A stretch of DNA of 64,000 nt, taken from Ignavibacteria bacterium. GTDB taxonomy: Bacteria; Bacteroidota; Ignavibacteria; Kapaibacteriales; UBA4661. This document shows, in pieces, positions 942 to 60,713 of this stretch (positions within the stretch are counted from its first letter, which is position 1; each line of letters begins with the position of its first letter). The position numbers were made by a program, and so were the translations under genes. The stretch spans positions 1 to 64,000 of the forward strand of contig JAAFIV010000023.1 of assembly GCA_013298775.1 (NCBI GenBank), read 5' to 3'. The notes beneath the pieces are model-generated. The model saw only the letters and a program-made list of their open reading frames with translations. It had not been told where the DNA came from and ran no database searches.

Positions 942-2273
942 TTACAGTCGCCCGTTTGCTTTTTCCCAATCCAATTTCGCCACCAAAACATCGTACACCG
1001 CTTGTAAATACGAGCCTTGCGTGTCGCGCAGCGTCTGCTCGGCGTTCAGAACGTCTTGCTGCGTGGCTTGTCCTTGCTTAAAGCGCGTCGTGGTCGTGGA
1101 AAGAACTTCTTCGGCAATACCGATATTTTCTTTTTGAATCTGCACCGCACGAAGCGAGTTTTTAAGCGATGTTTGCGTGTTACTCAGTTCGTATTGCATC
1201 GTCTGGCGCAAGGAACGGAGCGTGTTTTCGTTTTTATCAAGCTGCAATGCCTGTTGCTGCACAAGCGGCGTGCGCGTGAACCAATCCATAATGGGAACAT
1301 TGACGCGCAGCCCAAGATACGACAACGGGAAGAAGTTCAGTTTGCTCACATCATTGGCAAAACCTTGTGTTCCGAGAAAGCCGTAGCCCGAAAGCGTTGG
1401 GTAATTCTGCTTTTGTATGCGCTGAAGGCTCTGCACGTTCATTTCGCGTTGGGCAAGTTCGGCGCGAGTATCGGTGCGTCCTTCAAATGCCGCATCGGTA
1501 CTTGCGTTTGCGAAAGTGGTGTCATTTCCCAGCAAATTGGACAAATTATCAGCAAGGCGAATATCCGCAGCATTTCCCTCGAAACCCAGTTGCAGAGCCA
1601 GATTCATGCGGCTCACAGCAAGCGCGTCGGCAGCTTTTTGGCGTTGGAGTTTTGCATTGGAAACGTTTAAGTATGCGGTGTTTAGCTCGGTTTTGAGGGC
1701 GTTGGCATTTTGAAATTTTGATTGCACATTGCTGTACAAATTTTCATTCCGCGAGAGCGTCGTTTCTGCTTGGCGGAGCTTTTCTTCATTCAGCACAACG
1801 GCGTAGTACGCTCGCATGACGTTCAGTTTCAAGGTATTTTTCGACAAGGCAGTATTCGCAGAAGCAAGATTTTGTGCGGCTTTTGCGTACTCTACGCCTG
1901 CGCTTGCACCAAAATCCAGAATCGGCGCATTGAGGTCGAGCGACGCGCTGGCGTTCCAGTTTGTGCCGAAGACTGCGGTTGTGAGTTCATCTTCCGCAGC
2001 GCGAGGATTGAAGGTGCGGGCTGGCAAAACCTGCGTGGCGAGTTGCGTGTTGTAGCGAGTGTCTATTGCACCTGTCAGCCTTGGCAAGAGCGCGTTTCCT
2101 GCTTCTTTGACCTTTTCCTCGCTGATGCGCTCATCCACGAGAGCATTGCGAAAAGCAGGATTGTTGGAAAGCGCGTAACTGACGGCTTCTTGAACGGTGA
2201 ATTGCTTGGTTTGCGCATGAATGCTGGTGGCGCAAAGGCAAAGCGTGAGGAATGTAGTGATGATGCGGTTCAT
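942..2273 (-). CDS. TolC-family outer-membrane efflux protein
   Basis: This 443-residue protein is an outer-membrane factor, the trimeric channel that carries substrate from an inner-membrane transporter to the outside. Residues 1-20 form a signal peptide ending in SIHA before QTK. Two OEP repeats follow, roughly 25-225 and 245-440, each rich in long heptad-like helices (for example the ALSKNTLKLNVMRAYYAVVL stretch). The length is typical for TolC. It is the last gene of a minus-strand cluster with an FtsX-type permease, a membrane fusion protein and an ABC ATPase, so a DevBCA-TolC type exporter is the likely complex. The substrate cannot be told from sequence; glycolipids or peptides are usual for this class. 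Confidence 0.9.
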   Translation of the reverse strand: MNRIITTFLTLCLCATSIHAQTKQFTVQEAVSYALSNNPAFRNALVDERISEEKVKEAGNALLPRLTGAIDTRYNTQLATQVLPARTFNPRAAEDELTTAVFGTNWNASASLDLNAPILDFGASAGVEYAKAAQNLASANTALSKNTLKLNVMRAYYAVVLNEEKLRQAETTLSRNENLYSNVQSKFQNANALKTELNTAYLNVSNAKLQRQKAADALAVSRMNLALQLGFEGNAADIRLADNLSNLLGNDTTFANASTDAAFEGRTDTRAELAQREMNVQSLQRIQKQNYPTLSGYGFLGTQGFANDVSKLNFFPLSYLGLRVNVPIMDWFTRTPLVQQQALQLDKNENTLRSLRQTMQYELSNTQTSLKNSLRAVQIQKENIGIAEEVLSTTTTRFKQGQATQQDVLNAEQTLRDTQGSYLQAVYDVLVAKLDWEKANGRL

Positions 2274-2413: not shown

Positions 2414-3541
2414 TCAACCGCGAAAGACCGTTGCCGGCTCAAGTGTGGTGATGCGTCGAATAGCAAATACCGCTCCAAAGACAGAAATGACAACGGTAAT
2501 GACGAAAAATCCAAAGCGAATTGTCGGTGAATACTCAAACAGCACACCGCCTTGCGAGATGCCAAACTTGAAGCCTTGCAAAAGAATTGTGCTAAACACA
2601 TAGCCCACAAGTGCGAGAATAACGCACTGCAACAAAATAAGCCGTGTAATGAAGCCATTTGTAGAGCCAATCGCCTTCAAGGTGGCGTAATCTCTAATGC
2701 GGTCAATCGTTGCTGAGTACAGCGTGAGACCGATAATAATCAAGCCCGACAAAATTGCGAAGACAATGAGCGTTCCTGTGGAAATGGCGATACCGCTTGT
2801 GCTAAGAACAAAGGACACCGTTGAGCTTGATAAATCCTCCGCTTTCCATGCACGCACACCAAAAATACTTGCATTGATGCGGTCTCGCACGACAGCGGTG
2901 TCTGCACCTGGCTCTAAATCTACCAAAATCGCACTCACTTTGTCGGACGAGATGCGTCCGTACGCACGGGCGCGTTCCACCGTTGAAAACATATACACCC
3001 CGCCGAATCCCCGTGCACCACGTGTTTGTGCGGCAATGCTGGCTTTTTTGCCACCGAGTTCAAAGTTTGTTCCGAGCGTCGCGCCGCCAAGTGCTTTTTG
3101 GTCAAATTCATCGCACGTGAACGTGCCTTCAGGCATGATGTCAAGGGCGTTTCCTTTGCTCATATTCCACGGACCGCCCTTAAATTCAGGATACTGCGAG
3201 CCGACAATCACGGCAGCAGACGTTTTTCCATTTTCAAATTTTGCTTCGGCAGCCGCAAGCACAAGCGGATACGCCCGCGCCACGCCCGGAATAGATTCTA
3301 CCTCGCGTTGAAGGCGGCTATCCAAGAGTCCGAGTGAATTTGCATTGGTCGTGGCACTATTGATAACCCACAGCCCGACCTTACCTTTGGTGCTGTTCGG
3401 CAGCCCTGCCATCAGTCCTGTGAGGAACAAGAAAATACCGACCTGCTGCCCGATGAGGAAAATGGAAATAATGATGCCGAAGAGTGCGCCAAACGACTTG
3501 GGTTTGTCGTAGAGAAGGAAGCGTAATGCGTTTTTTAACAT
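2414..3541 (-). CDS. DevC-like FtsX-family ABC transporter permease
   Basis: This 375-residue permease has the FtsX/MacB-type layout. One N-terminal helix at about 18-42 is followed by a large periplasmic domain (about 45-240) and three helices near 255-280, 303-328 and 345-366, ending with the coupling segment RRITTLEPATVFRG. The opening LRFLLYDKPKSFGALFGIIISIFLIGQQ is characteristic of DevC-type permeases. It would pair with the ATPase at 5248-5976 and the fusion protein at 4098-5135. The GxxExxY cassette separates it from the fusion protein, but all genes keep the same direction. The start ATG at 3541 gives the expected short cytoplasmic N-terminus. Confidence 0.88.
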   Translation of the reverse strand: MLKNALRFLLYDKPKSFGALFGIIISIFLIGQQVGIFLFLTGLMAGLPNSTKGKVGLWVINSATTNANSLGLLDSRLQREVESIPGVARAYPLVLAAAEAKFENGKTSAAVIVGSQYPEFKGGPWNMSKGNALDIMPEGTFTCDEFDQKALGGATLGTNFELGGKKASIAAQTRGARGFGGVYMFSTVERARAYGRISSDKVSAILVDLEPGADTAVVRDRINASIFGVRAWKAEDLSSSTVSFVLSTSGIAISTGTLIVFAILSGLIIIGLTLYSATIDRIRDYATLKAIGSTNGFITRLILLQCVILALVGYVFSTILLQGFKFGISQGGVLFEYSPTIRFGFFVITVVISVFGAVFAIRRITTLEPATVFRG

Positions 3542-3560: not shown

Positions 3561-4031
3561 TTATGGTGATTTTTTTGACACAGATTGAACAGATTCGACT
3601 GATGAGGAATGATGCGGAGTTTGAGGTAAATGTTTTTTCAAATGATTTTCAAAGATTTTGCGATGAGGTTTTGGCTCAATCGTGCCAAAATTCAATAAAA
3701 GTCCCACTTCAATTTCAGTTGCGCGGAGATAATTGACAAGTTGAGCAAAATGCGATTCATGAATATCCTTAATGGCTTTTAACTCTACCAAAACCGTTTT
3801 TTCTACAATCATATCTGCCCGATACTCTCCAATAACTTGACCTTTGTAGTAAACTGTTATAGGCACTTGCGTTTCTACAGAAAGCCCCATTGCATGAAGC
3901 TCTATTTTGAGGGCTTCTTCATAACATTTCTCAAGAAACCCCGTGCCAAGATTGTTATACACGGAATAGTATGCACCAATAATTTTTTGTGTAATATCAC
4001 TGTGTTTGTACTGTTTTTCAATCATTTTCAT
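3561..4031 (-). CDS. GxxExxY protein (PD-(D/E)XK-like family)
   Basis: The name-giving motif is at residues 31-37 (G-FL-E-KC-Y), followed by the conserved stretch with ADMIVEKTVLVELKAI, an Asp/Glu-x-Lys arrangement like that of PD-(D/E)XK nucleases. The 156 residues fit the family, whose biochemical role is unknown. The C-terminal tail (VESVQSVSKKSP) is low-complexity and is encoded by the flanking repeat. The gene sits inside a transporter operon with which it has no evident functional link, and is flanked by an inverted repeat (see 3568-4091). It looks like a passenger cassette inserted in the sense direction. Confidence 0.85.
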   Translation of the reverse strand: MKMIEKQYKHSDITQKIIGAYYSVYNNLGTGFLEKCYEEALKIELHAMGLSVETQVPITVYYKGQVIGEYRADMIVEKTVLVELKAIKDIHESHFAQLVNYLRATEIEVGLLLNFGTIEPKPHRKIFENHLKKHLPQTPHHSSSVESVQSVSKKSP

Positions 4032-4091
4032 ATCATTTCTATTCCATCAGTTTTTATCAGTTCCATCAGTCAAATCAGTGTCAAAAAAATC
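3568..4091. mobile_element. Putative cassette carrying the GxxExxY gene
   Basis: The left edge GATTTTTTTGACACAGATT (3568-3586) and the right edge AATCAGTGTCAAAAAAATC (4073-4091) are inverted copies with 18 of 19 bases matching. Just inside lie short iterations of ACAGATT and ATCAGT type. The segment contains only the GxxExxY gene. No transposase is present and no target duplication is clear, so calling it mobile is inference. Confidence 0.55.
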
Positions 4092-4097
4092 TAAAAA

Positions 4098-5135
4098 TTA
4101 CTTCACCGCAATAACACACTCCACGCGGCTATTCAAGAGCAGCGCACCAGCATTATTCAAGCGCACCCGCACTTCGCGCACACGGCGGTCTTCGAGCGCA
4201 CCAGCTTCATCAGAAAACAACGATTTCTTCTTCAAATACGGTCCAATCGCGCTCACAACGCCATCGGCAACAATTTCCGTGTTTCCCTGCAAGCGAATCT
4301 GTGCCTTCTGACCAACAGCCACGCTGGAAACAAATAATTCATCCACCTCGCACAATACCGTAACTGCACCTTTTGGAGCAAAATCGCCCACTGCCGCACC
4401 AACAGCCACCGCGCTACCAACATTTGGCGTGAGCTTCAGCAACACCCCGTCCGTTGGTGCTTTCAGGACTTTTCGGCGAATCTCTGCACTCGACACGCGA
4501 GCATCGGCGCGGAGTTCCGCGAGGCGGCTTTCGGCAGAACGCAATGAGGATTGCAAACGCTCTACTTCGCGCTCGGCGGTATCGAAATCGGTTTTTGCAT
4601 TGTCGAGGTTTTGCCGAGTTTCCGCGCCATTGTCAAAGATATTTTTCAAACGATTGTAGCGTTCGCGGAAGTTTTGTGCTTTGGTTTCTGCGGATTGAAT
4701 TTGCGAGCGAATGCCCTTCAAATCTTCTTCCTGTGTGCGTACACGTGCCTCCGCAAGCTGCAACCGTGCGGACTCCACGCTATGGTCGAGTTCCAAAATG
4801 GTGCTTCCTGCTTGCAAATTATCGCCATCCTGTGCCGTTACTTTACTGACAATACCAGGCGTTTCCATGCTGAGAGCGGTGATTTGGTCTTCTGGCTCAA
4901 CGCGCCCAAGGGCAGTTACTTTGCTGACTTCGCTAGGATTGATGCGCTGTGCAGACGATACCGTCTTTGTGCCAGCATTCGCGCTTTCTTCGGTTTTCGC
5001 GCCATCGGCAGCTTTTGCGTCTTTCGAGCCGCAACTTGTGACGAGCGACCCTGTGAAGCCCAGTATTGACGCGCTAACAAGGGCAATACCTGTGCGACGA
5101 AAGGTGAGTGGAGAAATGAACAACATAGTTTTCAT
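4098..5135 (-). CDS. DevB/HlyD-type membrane fusion lipoprotein
   Basis: This 345-residue periplasmic adaptor bridges the inner-membrane ABC permease and the TolC channel. The N-terminus has a hydrophobic segment ending in LVTSC near residue 35, a lipobox, so it is probably a lipoprotein. A biotinyl-lipoyl half-motif (GIVSKVTAQDGDNLQAGSTILELD) precedes a long coiled-coil hairpin at about 110-220, rich in Q, E, R and A. After it come the second lipoyl half (VLKAPTDGVLLKLTPNVGSAV) and a beta-barrel domain. The order and length match DevB. The next upstream gene is the ATPase, with a small hairpin repeat between them. Confidence 0.88.
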   Translation of the reverse strand: MKTMLFISPLTFRRTGIALVSASILGFTGSLVTSCGSKDAKAADGAKTEESANAGTKTVSSAQRINPSEVSKVTALGRVEPEDQITALSMETPGIVSKVTAQDGDNLQAGSTILELDHSVESARLQLAEARVRTQEEDLKGIRSQIQSAETKAQNFRERYNRLKNIFDNGAETRQNLDNAKTDFDTAEREVERLQSSLRSAESRLAELRADARVSSAEIRRKVLKAPTDGVLLKLTPNVGSAVAVGAAVGDFAPKGAVTVLCEVDELFVSSVAVGQKAQIRLQGNTEIVADGVVSAIGPYLKKKSLFSDEAGALEDRRVREVRVRLNNAGALLLNSRVECVIAVK

Positions 5136-5200
5136 ACAATATCTGAGAAATGGTAAAAGTGGTGATATTTTCTTGATGTGTGCGGCAAAACCTAGACGGC

Positions 5201-5232
5201 GTGAGGCTCTGACTTCCTCGTCAGGGTCTCAC
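5201..5232. repeat. Hairpin repeat, family P4, single
   Basis: GTGAGGCTCTGA (5201-5212) pairs with TCAGGGTCTCAC (5221-5232) over 12 bp with two G-T wobbles and an 8-base loop. Related hairpins are at 6039-6174, 32359-32386 and 62271-62357. It lies between the ATPase and fusion-protein genes and could shape operon mRNA stability. Confidence 0.75.
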
Positions 5233-5247
5233 TTTCGCTTGTTTCGC

Positions 5248-5976
5248 CTAATGCGAATGATTAGCAACCAGTTCTTCTGCCGTTACTTCGCGGGCAATGC
5301 CGTTTTCTACTTCAATAATGCGGTGCGCGTAGTGCCGAAGGCGCATATCGTGGGTAACAACCGCCAACGCCCGCCCAGAATCAGCAATCTCGCGGAGTTC
5401 CTTCATCACGATTTCAACGGATTTTACATCCAGCGCAGCCGTTGGTTCATCGCAGAGCATGAGTTTTGGCTCGCTCACAAGGGCGCGGGCAATGGCGATA
5501 CGCTGCTGCTGACCGCCCGACAACTGGCGCGGAAGCTGCTTGCGGCGGTCGCTCATACCAACGCGCTCAATCACAGCGTGGGCGCGGTTACGAGCTTCTT
5601 TTTCGGGAATGCCCTGCAAGCGAAGTGGCATCATCACGTTCTCTTCGGCAGAAAGCGGCGCGACGAGATTAAAACTTTGAAACACAAAGCCGATGTTGTT
5701 GAGGCGCAAATCCGCCATTTGCTTTGCGTTCAGATTATTCGTGTCCGTGCCGTTGATGTTTACAACGCCTTCCGACGGATAAATTACGCAGCCAAGTAAG
5801 GAAAGAAGCGTAGTTTTGCCCGAACCCGATGGACCGATGATAAGCAAAAGCTCGCCTTTGCGGACTTCCATCGTGGTTGGTTGCAGCGCAATAATCTCGG
5901 TGTCGCCCGTTTTATAGACCTTCGACGCGCCGCGCACGTGGGCGATTGTTTGGCTAGTTGGTGGTGAAATTGTCAT
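5248..5976 (-). CDS. DevA/LolD-type ABC transporter ATPase
   Basis: The 242-residue ATP-binding subunit has all nucleotide-binding motifs intact: Walker A GPSGSGKT (residues 48-55), signature LSGGQQQR, Walker B LMLCDEP with the catalytic Glu, D-loop AALD and the switch His in VVTHD. The motif set and the opening (TSQTIAHVRGASKVYKTGDTEIIAL) place it in the LolD/MacB/DevA subclass that drives FtsX-like permeases. It is the first gene of the exporter cluster after the MFS gene and is separated from that gene by about 190 bases of paired hairpins. It powers export through the permease, fusion protein and TolC-like channel downstream. Confidence 0.92.
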   Translation of the reverse strand: MTISPPTSQTIAHVRGASKVYKTGDTEIIALQPTTMEVRKGELLLIIGPSGSGKTTLLSLLGCVIYPSEGVVNINGTDTNNLNAKQMADLRLNNIGFVFQSFNLVAPLSAEENVMMPLRLQGIPEKEARNRAHAVIERVGMSDRRKQLPRQLSGGQQQRIAIARALVSEPKLMLCDEPTAALDVKSVEIVMKELREIADSGRALAVVTHDMRLRHYAHRIIEVENGIAREVTAEELVANHSH

Positions 5977-6038
5977 TATTTTTGTGGTGAATGTATTGAA
6001 GAAAAATATCTACAAAGCTGATACATACTGCTCTCGGC

Positions 6039-6174
6039 GCGAGGGTCTCACTTCTTCGTGAGGCTCTCGCTTTATTGCTTGCTTTGTTTCCCGCTTGTTT
6101 GTTTGCTTCGTTGTCTGCTCCATCGCTCGCTTCGTTGCCGAGTGAGACCCTCGCTGAAGAAGCGAGAGCCTCAC
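6039..6174. repeat. Paired hairpin repeat, family P4
   Basis: Two inverted hairpins frame a pyrimidine-rich spacer. The first is GCGAGGGTCTCAC (6039-6051) with GTGAGGCTCTCGC (6058-6070). The second is GTGAGACCCTCGCT (6142-6155) with AGCGAGAGCCTCAC (6161-6174). The second hairpin overlaps the last codon position of the MFS gene and supplies its TGA stop at 6171-6173. Confidence 0.8.
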
Positions 6175-7436
6175 GCCTCAGCCTTGATACTTGATTCTTG
6201 TGGCGATCCTTGACCTTGCCCAAACCCGCTTGGCATCGGGAGTTGCTGCACTTGCCGCACGATGTAGAGCGAAAGAACCGTCACGCCGACGGCGAAAAAT
6301 CCAATCCAGTTGTAATGCTGCAAAAGCCCGTCCGCGCCTTTTGCTACAACAAAACCTGCAATGAACGTCCCTGCGGCGGAACTAAGTTGCTGCACCGACG
6401 AGCTAATGCTTGTAAAACTGCCTCTGTGCTGCGGCAGCACCGTTCCTTGCACGAGAGCCATGCCAGGAATCATGCGCCCGTTAATACAGACAAACAATAG
6501 CGTTGTAGCGAAAAACACAGCAACGACGGGCGTTGCGGGCGGAAAGTTCGTAATAATCAAAATTGGGAAAATAGATGCAATTGCAGCGACCGTGTAAATG
6601 CGAGCTTTATTGAATTTATCCGCCATGATGCCGATAATTGGTGAAGCCACCACCGTCGTCGCGCCACCAATCAAGTACATAAGCGGGAGTTGCGCTTCGG
6701 TGATGCCGACGTTTGCCACCAAAAAAGCGGTCAAAAATGGTAAAATGGAAAATTGCCCGAGTGCAATCGAAATCACGAGCGCACACGCAAAGAGTTGATT
6801 GCGGTCGTTCAAAATACTCGTGATAACCTCAGGCGGTGTGCGGCGTGGCGCGTTCAAGTGTCCCGTGAGCGAGGGAACGGCAATGGCAACCAACACCTGC
6901 ACAATGAGGCTTAATCCCACCAACACAAGGAACGGTGCGTGCCAATCCCACAAATTTGCAAAGTACAACCCGCCCGGAACGCCCAAAATAGACGCAAGCG
7001 AAAACGACGCTGTTACCAAGCCAAACGAGCGGGCGCGGCGTTCTGCGGGAATCACATCGCCAATAATGGAAAAAACCATTGTTCCCATAAGCCCACCGAA
7101 CATTCCAGCAATGATGCGCCCTACAAGCAATGTCGGGTAATTCGGCGCAAGCCCGCACAGAAGCGTTGCTGCCGTCAGCCCAGCAAAGAGCAGCGTGAGG
7201 AGCTTTTTACGGTCGTATTTATCAATGAAAAACGCGCCCAAAAAGCCGCAAATACCCGCCGTGAGGATGTACGCGCCCACCGCAATACCAAATTCTTTTG
7301 TGCCAATGCTCCAGAGTTTGATGAGCTTTGGTGCGAGCGGCGGCATAATCATAAAGTCCACCACCGCGATAAACTGCACGAGTGCAAGCGTTGCAAGCAA
7401 GAACATTTCTTGCTTTGTTGTCAGTTGTTTGTTCAT
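6171..7436 (-). CDS. MFS transporter (drug/sugar efflux type)
   Basis: This is a 12-helix major facilitator protein of 421 residues. Helix 1 contains LALVQFIAVVDFMIMPPLAP, the pattern of proton antiporters of the YfcJ/AraJ efflux type, and loop 2-3 holds the MFS signature in the form GAFFIDKYDRKKLL. I place the start at the ATG at 7436 (MNKQLTTKQEM). An in-frame ATG at 7511 would add 25 residues with no obvious role. The last codons and the TGA stop run into a palindromic repeat. The substrate is unknown. The neighbouring ABC exporter suggests an efflux-oriented region, but co-transcription is not proved because hairpins separate the two. Confidence 0.85.
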   Translation of the reverse strand: MNKQLTTKQEMFLLATLALVQFIAVVDFMIMPPLAPKLIKLWSIGTKEFGIAVGAYILTAGICGFLGAFFIDKYDRKKLLTLLFAGLTAATLLCGLAPNYPTLLVGRIIAGMFGGLMGTMVFSIIGDVIPAERRARSFGLVTASFSLASILGVPGGLYFANLWDWHAPFLVLVGLSLIVQVLVAIAVPSLTGHLNAPRRTPPEVITSILNDRNQLFACALVISIALGQFSILPFLTAFLVANVGITEAQLPLMYLIGGATTVVASPIIGIMADKFNKARIYTVAAIASIFPILIITNFPPATPVVAVFFATTLLFVCINGRMIPGMALVQGTVLPQHRGSFTSISSSVQQLSSAAGTFIAGFVVAKGADGLLQHYNWIGFFAVGVTVLSLYIVRQVQQLPMPSGFGQGQGSPQESSIKAEA

Positions 7437-60560: not shown

Positions 60561-60583
60561 ATTTCTCCTCGAAGCATTTTGAG

Positions 60584-60677
60584 GATTGACAGGATGTTGA
60601 GGATAAAGATTTAAGGATAAAGATTTAAGGATAAAGAAACGTCCTCAACATCCTGAAAGTCCGGGCTTCATCCGCGT
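60584..60677. repeat. P3 family repeat, copy c (degenerate) with 14-bp tandem units
   Basis: GAGGATTGACAGGATGTTGA at the left is answered by TCAACATCC and ATCCGCGTTCC at the right. Within it AGGATAAAGATTTA is repeated nearly three times (60600-60637). Confidence 0.7.
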
Positions 60678-60713
60678 TCCAAATACTTGTTGCTTCATTC
60701 AAGAATCGTGTAT

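Follow-up and report, generated by a model that had tools for sequence, protein, structure and literature searches.

A GxxExxY nuclease gene between inverted arrays of short units as a candidate small mobile element

The GxxExxY gene found within an ABC exporter operon of an Ignavibacteria bacterium is, with a rough probability of 0.55, part of a small mobile element that belongs to a widespread type, in which a PD-(D/E)XK nuclease gene lies between inverted arms built as unit arrays, in a manner resembling RAYT genes and REPINs. As far as sequence can tell, the existence of the element is supported by the presence of this architecture at over half of the sampled loci, its absence at the corresponding sites of relatives, the replacement of or re-entry into its slot, one pair of loci from different phyla that are alike only as far as the arms, and the large number of gene-less hairpins on the same arm plan, mostly in genomes with the gene. 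That the nuclease is its own mover is what we infer from these observations.

The analysed window comprises 64,000 nt, bases 1-64000 of contig C16 in a draft genome of 5.19 Mb (G000). On its minus strand lies an operon encoding, in order, an ABC ATPase (5248..5976), a membrane fusion protein (HlyD_D23/HlyD_3; 4098..5135), the GxxExxY protein (156 aa, PD-(D/E)XK nuclease fold, PF13366 and TIGR04256; 3561..4031), a permease (FtsX / MacB_PCD; 2414..3541) and a TolC type outer membrane efflux protein (942..2273). The profile matches, all on the minus strand, agree with the first-pass annotation, which had placed a single GxxExxY gene between the fusion protein and permease genes. The composition of the host site is that of a putative DevBCA-TolC type exporter, with its four components adjacent in the profile search. 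Another hairpin family (GTGAGACCCT...AGAGCCTCAC) flanks the ABC ATPase gene on both sides, at 5198-5233, about 6033-6068 and 6141-6177 of the window.

The gene is bounded on its upstream side by a 5' arm (4045..4091, minus strand), with the outer end GATTTTTTTGACAC followed by units ending (C/A)TGAT at a pitch of 9-11 nt, and on the other side by a 3' arm (3568..3614, minus strand). The 19-base inverted repeat with 18 matches noticed at first pass was recovered as the outermost 19 bases (18/19) of longer arms of 47 nt, which are 77% complementary and have 430 nt between them. The repeat had also been said to encode the last residues of the gene, and the arm pairing and coordinates indeed assign residues 140-156 to the 3' arm, with the stop codon (3561-3563) immediately beyond it. 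Disorder is predicted for residues 137-155 (pLDDT <50), which form a tail after the predicted fold of helices and strands (residues 11-126). When the 5' flank was locally aligned with the reverse-complemented 3' flank, the inverted-repeat (IR) score was 19.5, a value reached or exceeded at 2 of 1025 other offsets of the 64-kb window, both of them (5100, 5160) on one unrelated hairpin pair. Open reading frames and profile search revealed no DDE transposase between the cassette ends.

The gene between the arms matches PDDEXK_3/GxxExxY alone in Pfam and NCBIfam (PF13366, E 4.6e-42, 143.5 bits, cut-off 22; TIGR04256, E 1.4e-41, 141.5 bits, cut-off 35). The motifs D73, E83-x-K85, Q97 and G31xxE34xxY37 are conserved in 119 homologue rows, which include a few duplicates, with D73 and Y37 present in 119, E83 in 117, K85 in 116, E34 in 115 and Q97 in 114. 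Following the PD-(D/E)XK pattern, D73, E83, K85 and Q97 are taken to be the catalytic residues, and the protein is, judged by its sequence, an intact nuclease. The predicted model (mean pLDDT 84.9) is alpha/beta and nuclease-like, and lies closest to SSO0001 (4ic1), a Cas4, with a Foldseek E of 9.7e-4 and a VIA-align Z of 9.4 (rmsd 4.3, 107 residues, 19% identity). The next chains, mostly PD-(D/E)XK nucleases, gave Z 7.6 or lower; restriction enzymes, Holliday junction resolvases and other nuclease folds scored Z 5.7-7.6, too close to background for the protein to be placed among them. A search of solved structures by sequence returned chance-level matches only, and the PADLOC defence models gave 0 families at E 0.001. 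PF13366 is present in 150/296 sampled genomes of the phylum and also in bins of many other phyla, and nothing on the function of GxxExxY was found in the accessible portions of the open-licence PMC literature naming the family.

Inverted arms recur at other GxxExxY loci. In a first set of relatives (30 loci fetched, 5 dropped and 25 with full flanks scored), 15/25 had an IR score of at least 16, with a maximum of 14.5 for shuffled flanks. The largest set was drawn from the best 80 of 570 confirmed GxxExxY places, a sample that leans to relatives of the focal clade, and retained 76 loci from Bacteroidota, Ignavibacteriota, Chloroflexota, Acidobacteriota, Planctomycetota, Nitrospirota and other phyla after exclusion of four with short flanks (L095, L151, L155, L156). 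Scores of at least 16 were obtained at 51 of these 76 loci vs 0/539 same-locus control windows, and scores of at least 15 at 58 vs 3/539; the 18 loci scoring below 15 include some without visible arms (L121, L128, L133, L150). A further PF13366 sample (30 loci, 1 dropped) reached at least 16 at 15/29 loci vs 1/58 controls. The three sets are only partly independent of one another, their loci and genomes are not independent draws, and some high scores (e.g. L157, L118, L100) may reflect neighbouring hairpins or non-arm sequence.

The arms match within loci far more often than between them, with a score of at least 16 at 51/76 vs 187/1900 (best 80 of 570 places). A focal 19-mer common to other GxxExxY genes was rejected, and the second GxxExxY gene of G000 (L002) has a different arm. 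The first-pass annotation expected the same flanks at other GxxExxY genes and held that the repeats would be coincidental if these were lacking; taken literally they are lacking, as the focal 19-mer is absent there, and over half of the sampled genes have arms of their own on the same unit plan. By these comparisons, the arm sequence is particular to the locus in most cases but follows a common plan, inverted on the two sides. The consensus is AATRG-AACRCNGAT-NN-ACRCNGAT..., with about four degenerate 9-10-nt units per arm. Alignment on the first unit of 63 left and 51 right arms (best 80 of 570 loci) gave an identical logo, consisting of a weak (A/G)AT(A/G), RRACRCNGAT and then GAT at +9, +18 and +28, which is informative for the later units and outer bases only, because the first unit served to find the arms. 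Self-match within arms is 0.37-0.39 at lags 9-10 vs 0.26-0.28 in shuffled arms, with a smaller rise at 18-20, and other arm variants have CACAGAG, CGCAAAG or GAGGACT units.

The orientation of the gene was compared with that of its neighbours, taken as the longest ORFs without a gene finder; both neighbours run in the same direction at 55/75 loci and both are opposed at 3/75. The earlier proposal that insertion in the sense direction keeps the operon working stands as far as this orientation goes, and what it indicates is tolerance and not a mechanism, since any ordinary operon gene is also sense. Recurrent host operons, named by eye (L098, L112, L134, L155, L120, L159; L101, L128, L137, L150), contain sugar-nucleotide (capsule-type) genes or a peptidase-domain ABC exporter adjoining an HlyD-like protein.

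The unit plan is also present in hairpins without a gene. The pattern ACRCNGATN{1,3}ACRCNGAT has 904 matches in 296 genomes, compared with 15 for the reversed control. At least 2 matches were found in 72/150 genomes with PF13366 vs 12/146 without it, and at least 10 in 20 genomes with the family vs 0 without; 8 genomes lacking PF13366 have at least 3. Genome relatedness was handled by omitting one large family, f28, after which at least 2 matches remained in 71/144 genomes with vs 11/89 without the gene (p 3.7e-9). In G000 an arm-like DNA pattern has 2 matches, both in hairpins sharing the focal arm, and the outer 30 nt of the focal 5' arm (4056-4085) match mini-elements of the same genome at 93% (E 8.8e-6). 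At about 60570-60710 of the window there is a hairpin mini-element of the L002 type, ending ...GGGCTTCATCCGCGTTCC, beside a longer outer sequence ending CGTGTATTTAG. Gelidibacter has, next to the full gene, a degenerate GxxExxY copy with an internal deletion, seen by eye between arms.

Genome G104 combines 201 pattern matches with 4 GxxExxY genes. Many of the matches listed there form pairs that face inward and start 58 bp from each other, and among ten distinct hairpins the majority end AAT(A/G)G(A/C)AC...GT(T/G)C(T/C)AT. Four hairpin sites (E1-E4) in a 13-kb stretch of this genome were compared with relatives in the genus, some of which lack the mini-elements there. The E1 hairpin is missing in G138, G223 and G337, which have a short GCTAAN-type unit stretch there instead, and the E2 hairpin is missing in G138, G223, G336, G337 and G339, among others. 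At E1, the hairpin of G339, G341 and G333 shares the outer end but has different inner units, and an ORF that by eye resembles a four-helix-bundle gene takes its place in two further relatives, intact in G340 and broken in G334.

Some of the hairpins are nested in MITEs. Those of G000 with the focal arm form the interior of a MITE, mostly of 180-200 bp, with the TIR ATGC(C/G)AATTAAAAG (loci L260-L285). Examination covered 23 of 30 fetched loci, leaving aside the focal site, repeated sites and another type; both ends of the MITE were located in 21, of which 19 had perfect 5-bp duplications and all 21 agreed at 4 or more of 5 positions, compared with 7/147 at control offsets. A hairpin of the L002 type lies inside longer inverted ends in the inspected copy L056, and E3 and E4 of G104 lie inside or near a MITE with the TIR GAGACCTCTGAAAA. 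This nesting indicates that some of the amplification is probably ordinary transposition of the host MITE, and a DDE-type transposase probably multiplied the focal-arm hairpin copies in G000. The same MITEs, with their TIRs and duplications, would be expected if cassette and hairpins alike were passengers, moved in trans as MITEs by DDE transposases, and the nuclease had an unrelated job. This alternative is nevertheless rather unlikely, given that the focal cassette lacks the outer TIR of the G000 MITE type, that the arm plan is common across phyla yet the two MITE TIRs differ, that the TIR-less hairpins E1 and E2 are missing at the same sites in relatives, and that arm counts track the presence of PF13366.

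A comparable arrangement surrounds a second gene family, PF05635, at whose loci (L329-L358) inverted arms scoring at least 15 were found in 14/30 vs 0/60 controls. These arms have a period of 7, with self-match of 0.56-0.61 at lags 7, 14 and 21. They might be related to the heptamer arrays of unknown origin that the available part of PMC4679880 describes in Beggiatoaceae, Cyanobacteria and Bacteroidetes. The name of PF05635 points to rRNA intervening sequences (IVS), and the IVS of Coxiella consists, according to the available part of PMC4990558, of an ORF between terminal inverted repeats that is excised by RNase III. A four-helix-bundle-like gene seems to fill the E1 intergenic slot (L320, L326), which holds a GxxExxY-type hairpin in a relative.

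The outline shared with the Coxiella IVS (as given in that part of PMC4990558) is among the points that would fit arms acting as an RNA device, in which RNase III cuts a transcript stem, the operon mRNA tolerates the insert and mobility is incidental. The sense orientation within operons and the IVS-protein-like, four-helix-bundle ORF recognised by eye at E1 of G340 and G334 would fit it as well. Transitions between paired arms, however, comprise 80 that are G-U compatible vs 101 that are not (p 0.14), and with no G-U excess the comparison lends no support to selection on an RNA stem. This explanation also has no role for the gene-less hairpins or the fixed unit period, which makes it improbable.

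Comparison of the host slot among relatives bears directly on the mobile-element reading. A close homologue of the fusion protein occurs in 6/8 genus genomes searched (59-100% identity), followed by a GxxExxY gene with its own arms in G000, G005, G007 and G001. The slot is empty in G006, in which the permease start lies 28 nt past the fusion-protein stop codon, and in G002 as far as the contig reaches, with the same pre-permease sequence before the contig end, so that the empty operons anticipated in relatives do exist. Between G000 and G005, fourfold-site identity is 140/161 in the fusion protein, 92/124 in the ATPase and 117/189 in the permease (62-87%), whereas the GxxExxY gene is saturated at 11/31 in a test of 31 sites, with 21-44% in other slot pairs. 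As silent sites are saturated in the cassette and not in its neighbours, operon and cassette do not share a line of descent. The tree groups L002, which is located elsewhere in G000, with the four slot genes in a single clade at the level of the genus (SH-aLRT 92, short of the tool mark of 95) that is star-like, with similar distances throughout. Saturation and tree together argue that the slot is one that has been refilled or filled more than once, probably with cassettes drawn from a pool resident in the genus. A hypermutable cassette in place of replacement was rejected, since in L011/L025, from the same genus, cassette and flanks have changed alike (79% over 2.5 kb) and speed alone does not explain the slot.

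Other loci have apparently been inherited vertically (L101/L137, L109/L144, L116/L124, L011/L025), indicating that movement is rare. Arm identity is 77-97% in three of these four pairs, which is similar to the conservation of the gene; in the fourth, L101/L137, the right arm is not alignable. Loss of the same unit in step by both arms was rejected for L011/L025, in which the left arm alone lost 9 bp. Vertical inheritance of an accessory exporter gene, with the repeats a by-product such as terminators, would agree with such pairs, with the four genus members having GxxExxY in the slot and with their single clade, but it is already contradicted for this slot and very improbable overall, given saturation of the cassette and not its neighbours, star-like distances, the membership of L002 despite its location and the two operons without the gene.

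Between phyla, L123 (Bacteroidetes bin) and L145 (Methylobacter bin), two MAGs for which wrong binning is possible, share 76% identity over 459 bp. The similarity covers arms and gene only and stops at the outer arm ends, where 30-column identity, about 80% inside, drops to 40-60% (AATGGAACGC at one end, GCGTTCTAT at the other); a second pair, L099/L110, has a less clean end of similarity. In G020, two 97% identical GxxExxY copies lie close together (L017; 1284-1801 and 2538-3056), and the boundaries of this duplication are not at the arms and so give no definition of the unit. Inspection by eye revealed no target-site duplication at GxxExxY cassettes or free G104 mini-elements, in comparisons with strongly diverged sister species. 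In the search for a vehicle, there was no match among 50,697 phage records, the 8 plasmid records with a match were all labelled non-mobilizable, and of 42 stretches from a scan of viral contigs 0 were confirmed. Taken from these comparisons, it is well supported that arms and nuclease gene are a unit that comes, goes and is exchanged. Spread as a repeat-bounded cassette, the idea at first pass, is supported in part: the gene behaves as a unit with its arms, which are a candidate substrate of the spread, and the focal 19-mer is not common to other genes.

If the nuclease moves the element, it would recognise the arms of its own element, probably folded into a hairpin or cruciform in which the units form a helically phased binding array, and cut at them, starting copying or homing into intergenic sites. 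The gene-less hairpins would be internal-deletion, non-autonomous forms, related to the cassette as REPINs are to RAYTs. The absence of a G-U bias suggests that the arms would be kept at the DNA level and not as an RNA stem, and operons may tolerate the element because it is short, sense-oriented and open-framed. More speculatively, and with less confidence than for the element as such, GxxExxY proteins could supply the catalyst for a class of minimal mobile elements that is distinct and spans many phyla, in which one Cas4-like nuclease reads 9-10-nt arrays and copies itself and hairpins to intergenic sites, with the four-helix-bundle class and its 7-nt arms as a parallel. If this is true, enclosing one small gene in inverted arrays of short units would be a general means of mobility without a known type of transposase or recombinase. 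The common arm plan gives the large PF13366 family a testable role, the cutting of its own arms, and would explain a class of intergenic palindromes, and a nuclease-only type would join the list of small mobile elements. A tiny mobile-element family with these arms seems not to have been described previously, with no description of the arms found in the accessible portions of the open-licence PMC literature and an account elsewhere possible.

Among known systems, RAYT genes are themselves flanked by REPs. The likeness to RAYTs and REPINs lies in a GxxExxY gene between inverted repeats together with gene-less inverted doublets elsewhere. The present element differs in having a PD-(D/E)XK nuclease and no tyrosine (HUH) transposase between the arms, and in arms that are arrays of 9-10-nt units with their own sequence at most loci. 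REPINs, in the account given by the available part of PMC3116915, are gene-less inverted doublets that form hairpins, are extragenic and are tied to a catalytic RAYT gene. The IVS of 23S rRNA resembles the cassette in having a short ORF within an inverted-repeat stem, and PF05635 genes also have inverted-array arms, but the ORF is a four-helix-bundle S23p/PF05635 protein in place of PDDEXK_3, the PF05635 units are of 7 nt compared with 9-10 for GxxExxY, and the IVS is located in rRNA, from which RNase III excises it (PMC4990558, available part). MITEs moved by DDE transposases are likewise short, palindromic, intergenic and multicopy, and some contain hairpins of the GxxExxY class, whereas the focal cassette has its own nuclease gene and no outer TIR or TSD was seen at it. 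Cas4 carries an Fe-S cluster. The focal protein shares with the Cas4 / lambda-exonuclease branch its closest fold, that of SSO0001, and a D-ExK active site, but it is a short single domain with one cysteine, for which an Fe-S cluster is not expected. Free-standing homing endonuclease genes place a nuclease ORF between other genes, at sites that are occupied in some relatives and vacant in others and that different versions can reoccupy. The cassette resembles them as a nuclease ORF in a slot that is filled, empty and refilled, and differs from them in being bounded by inverted arrays.
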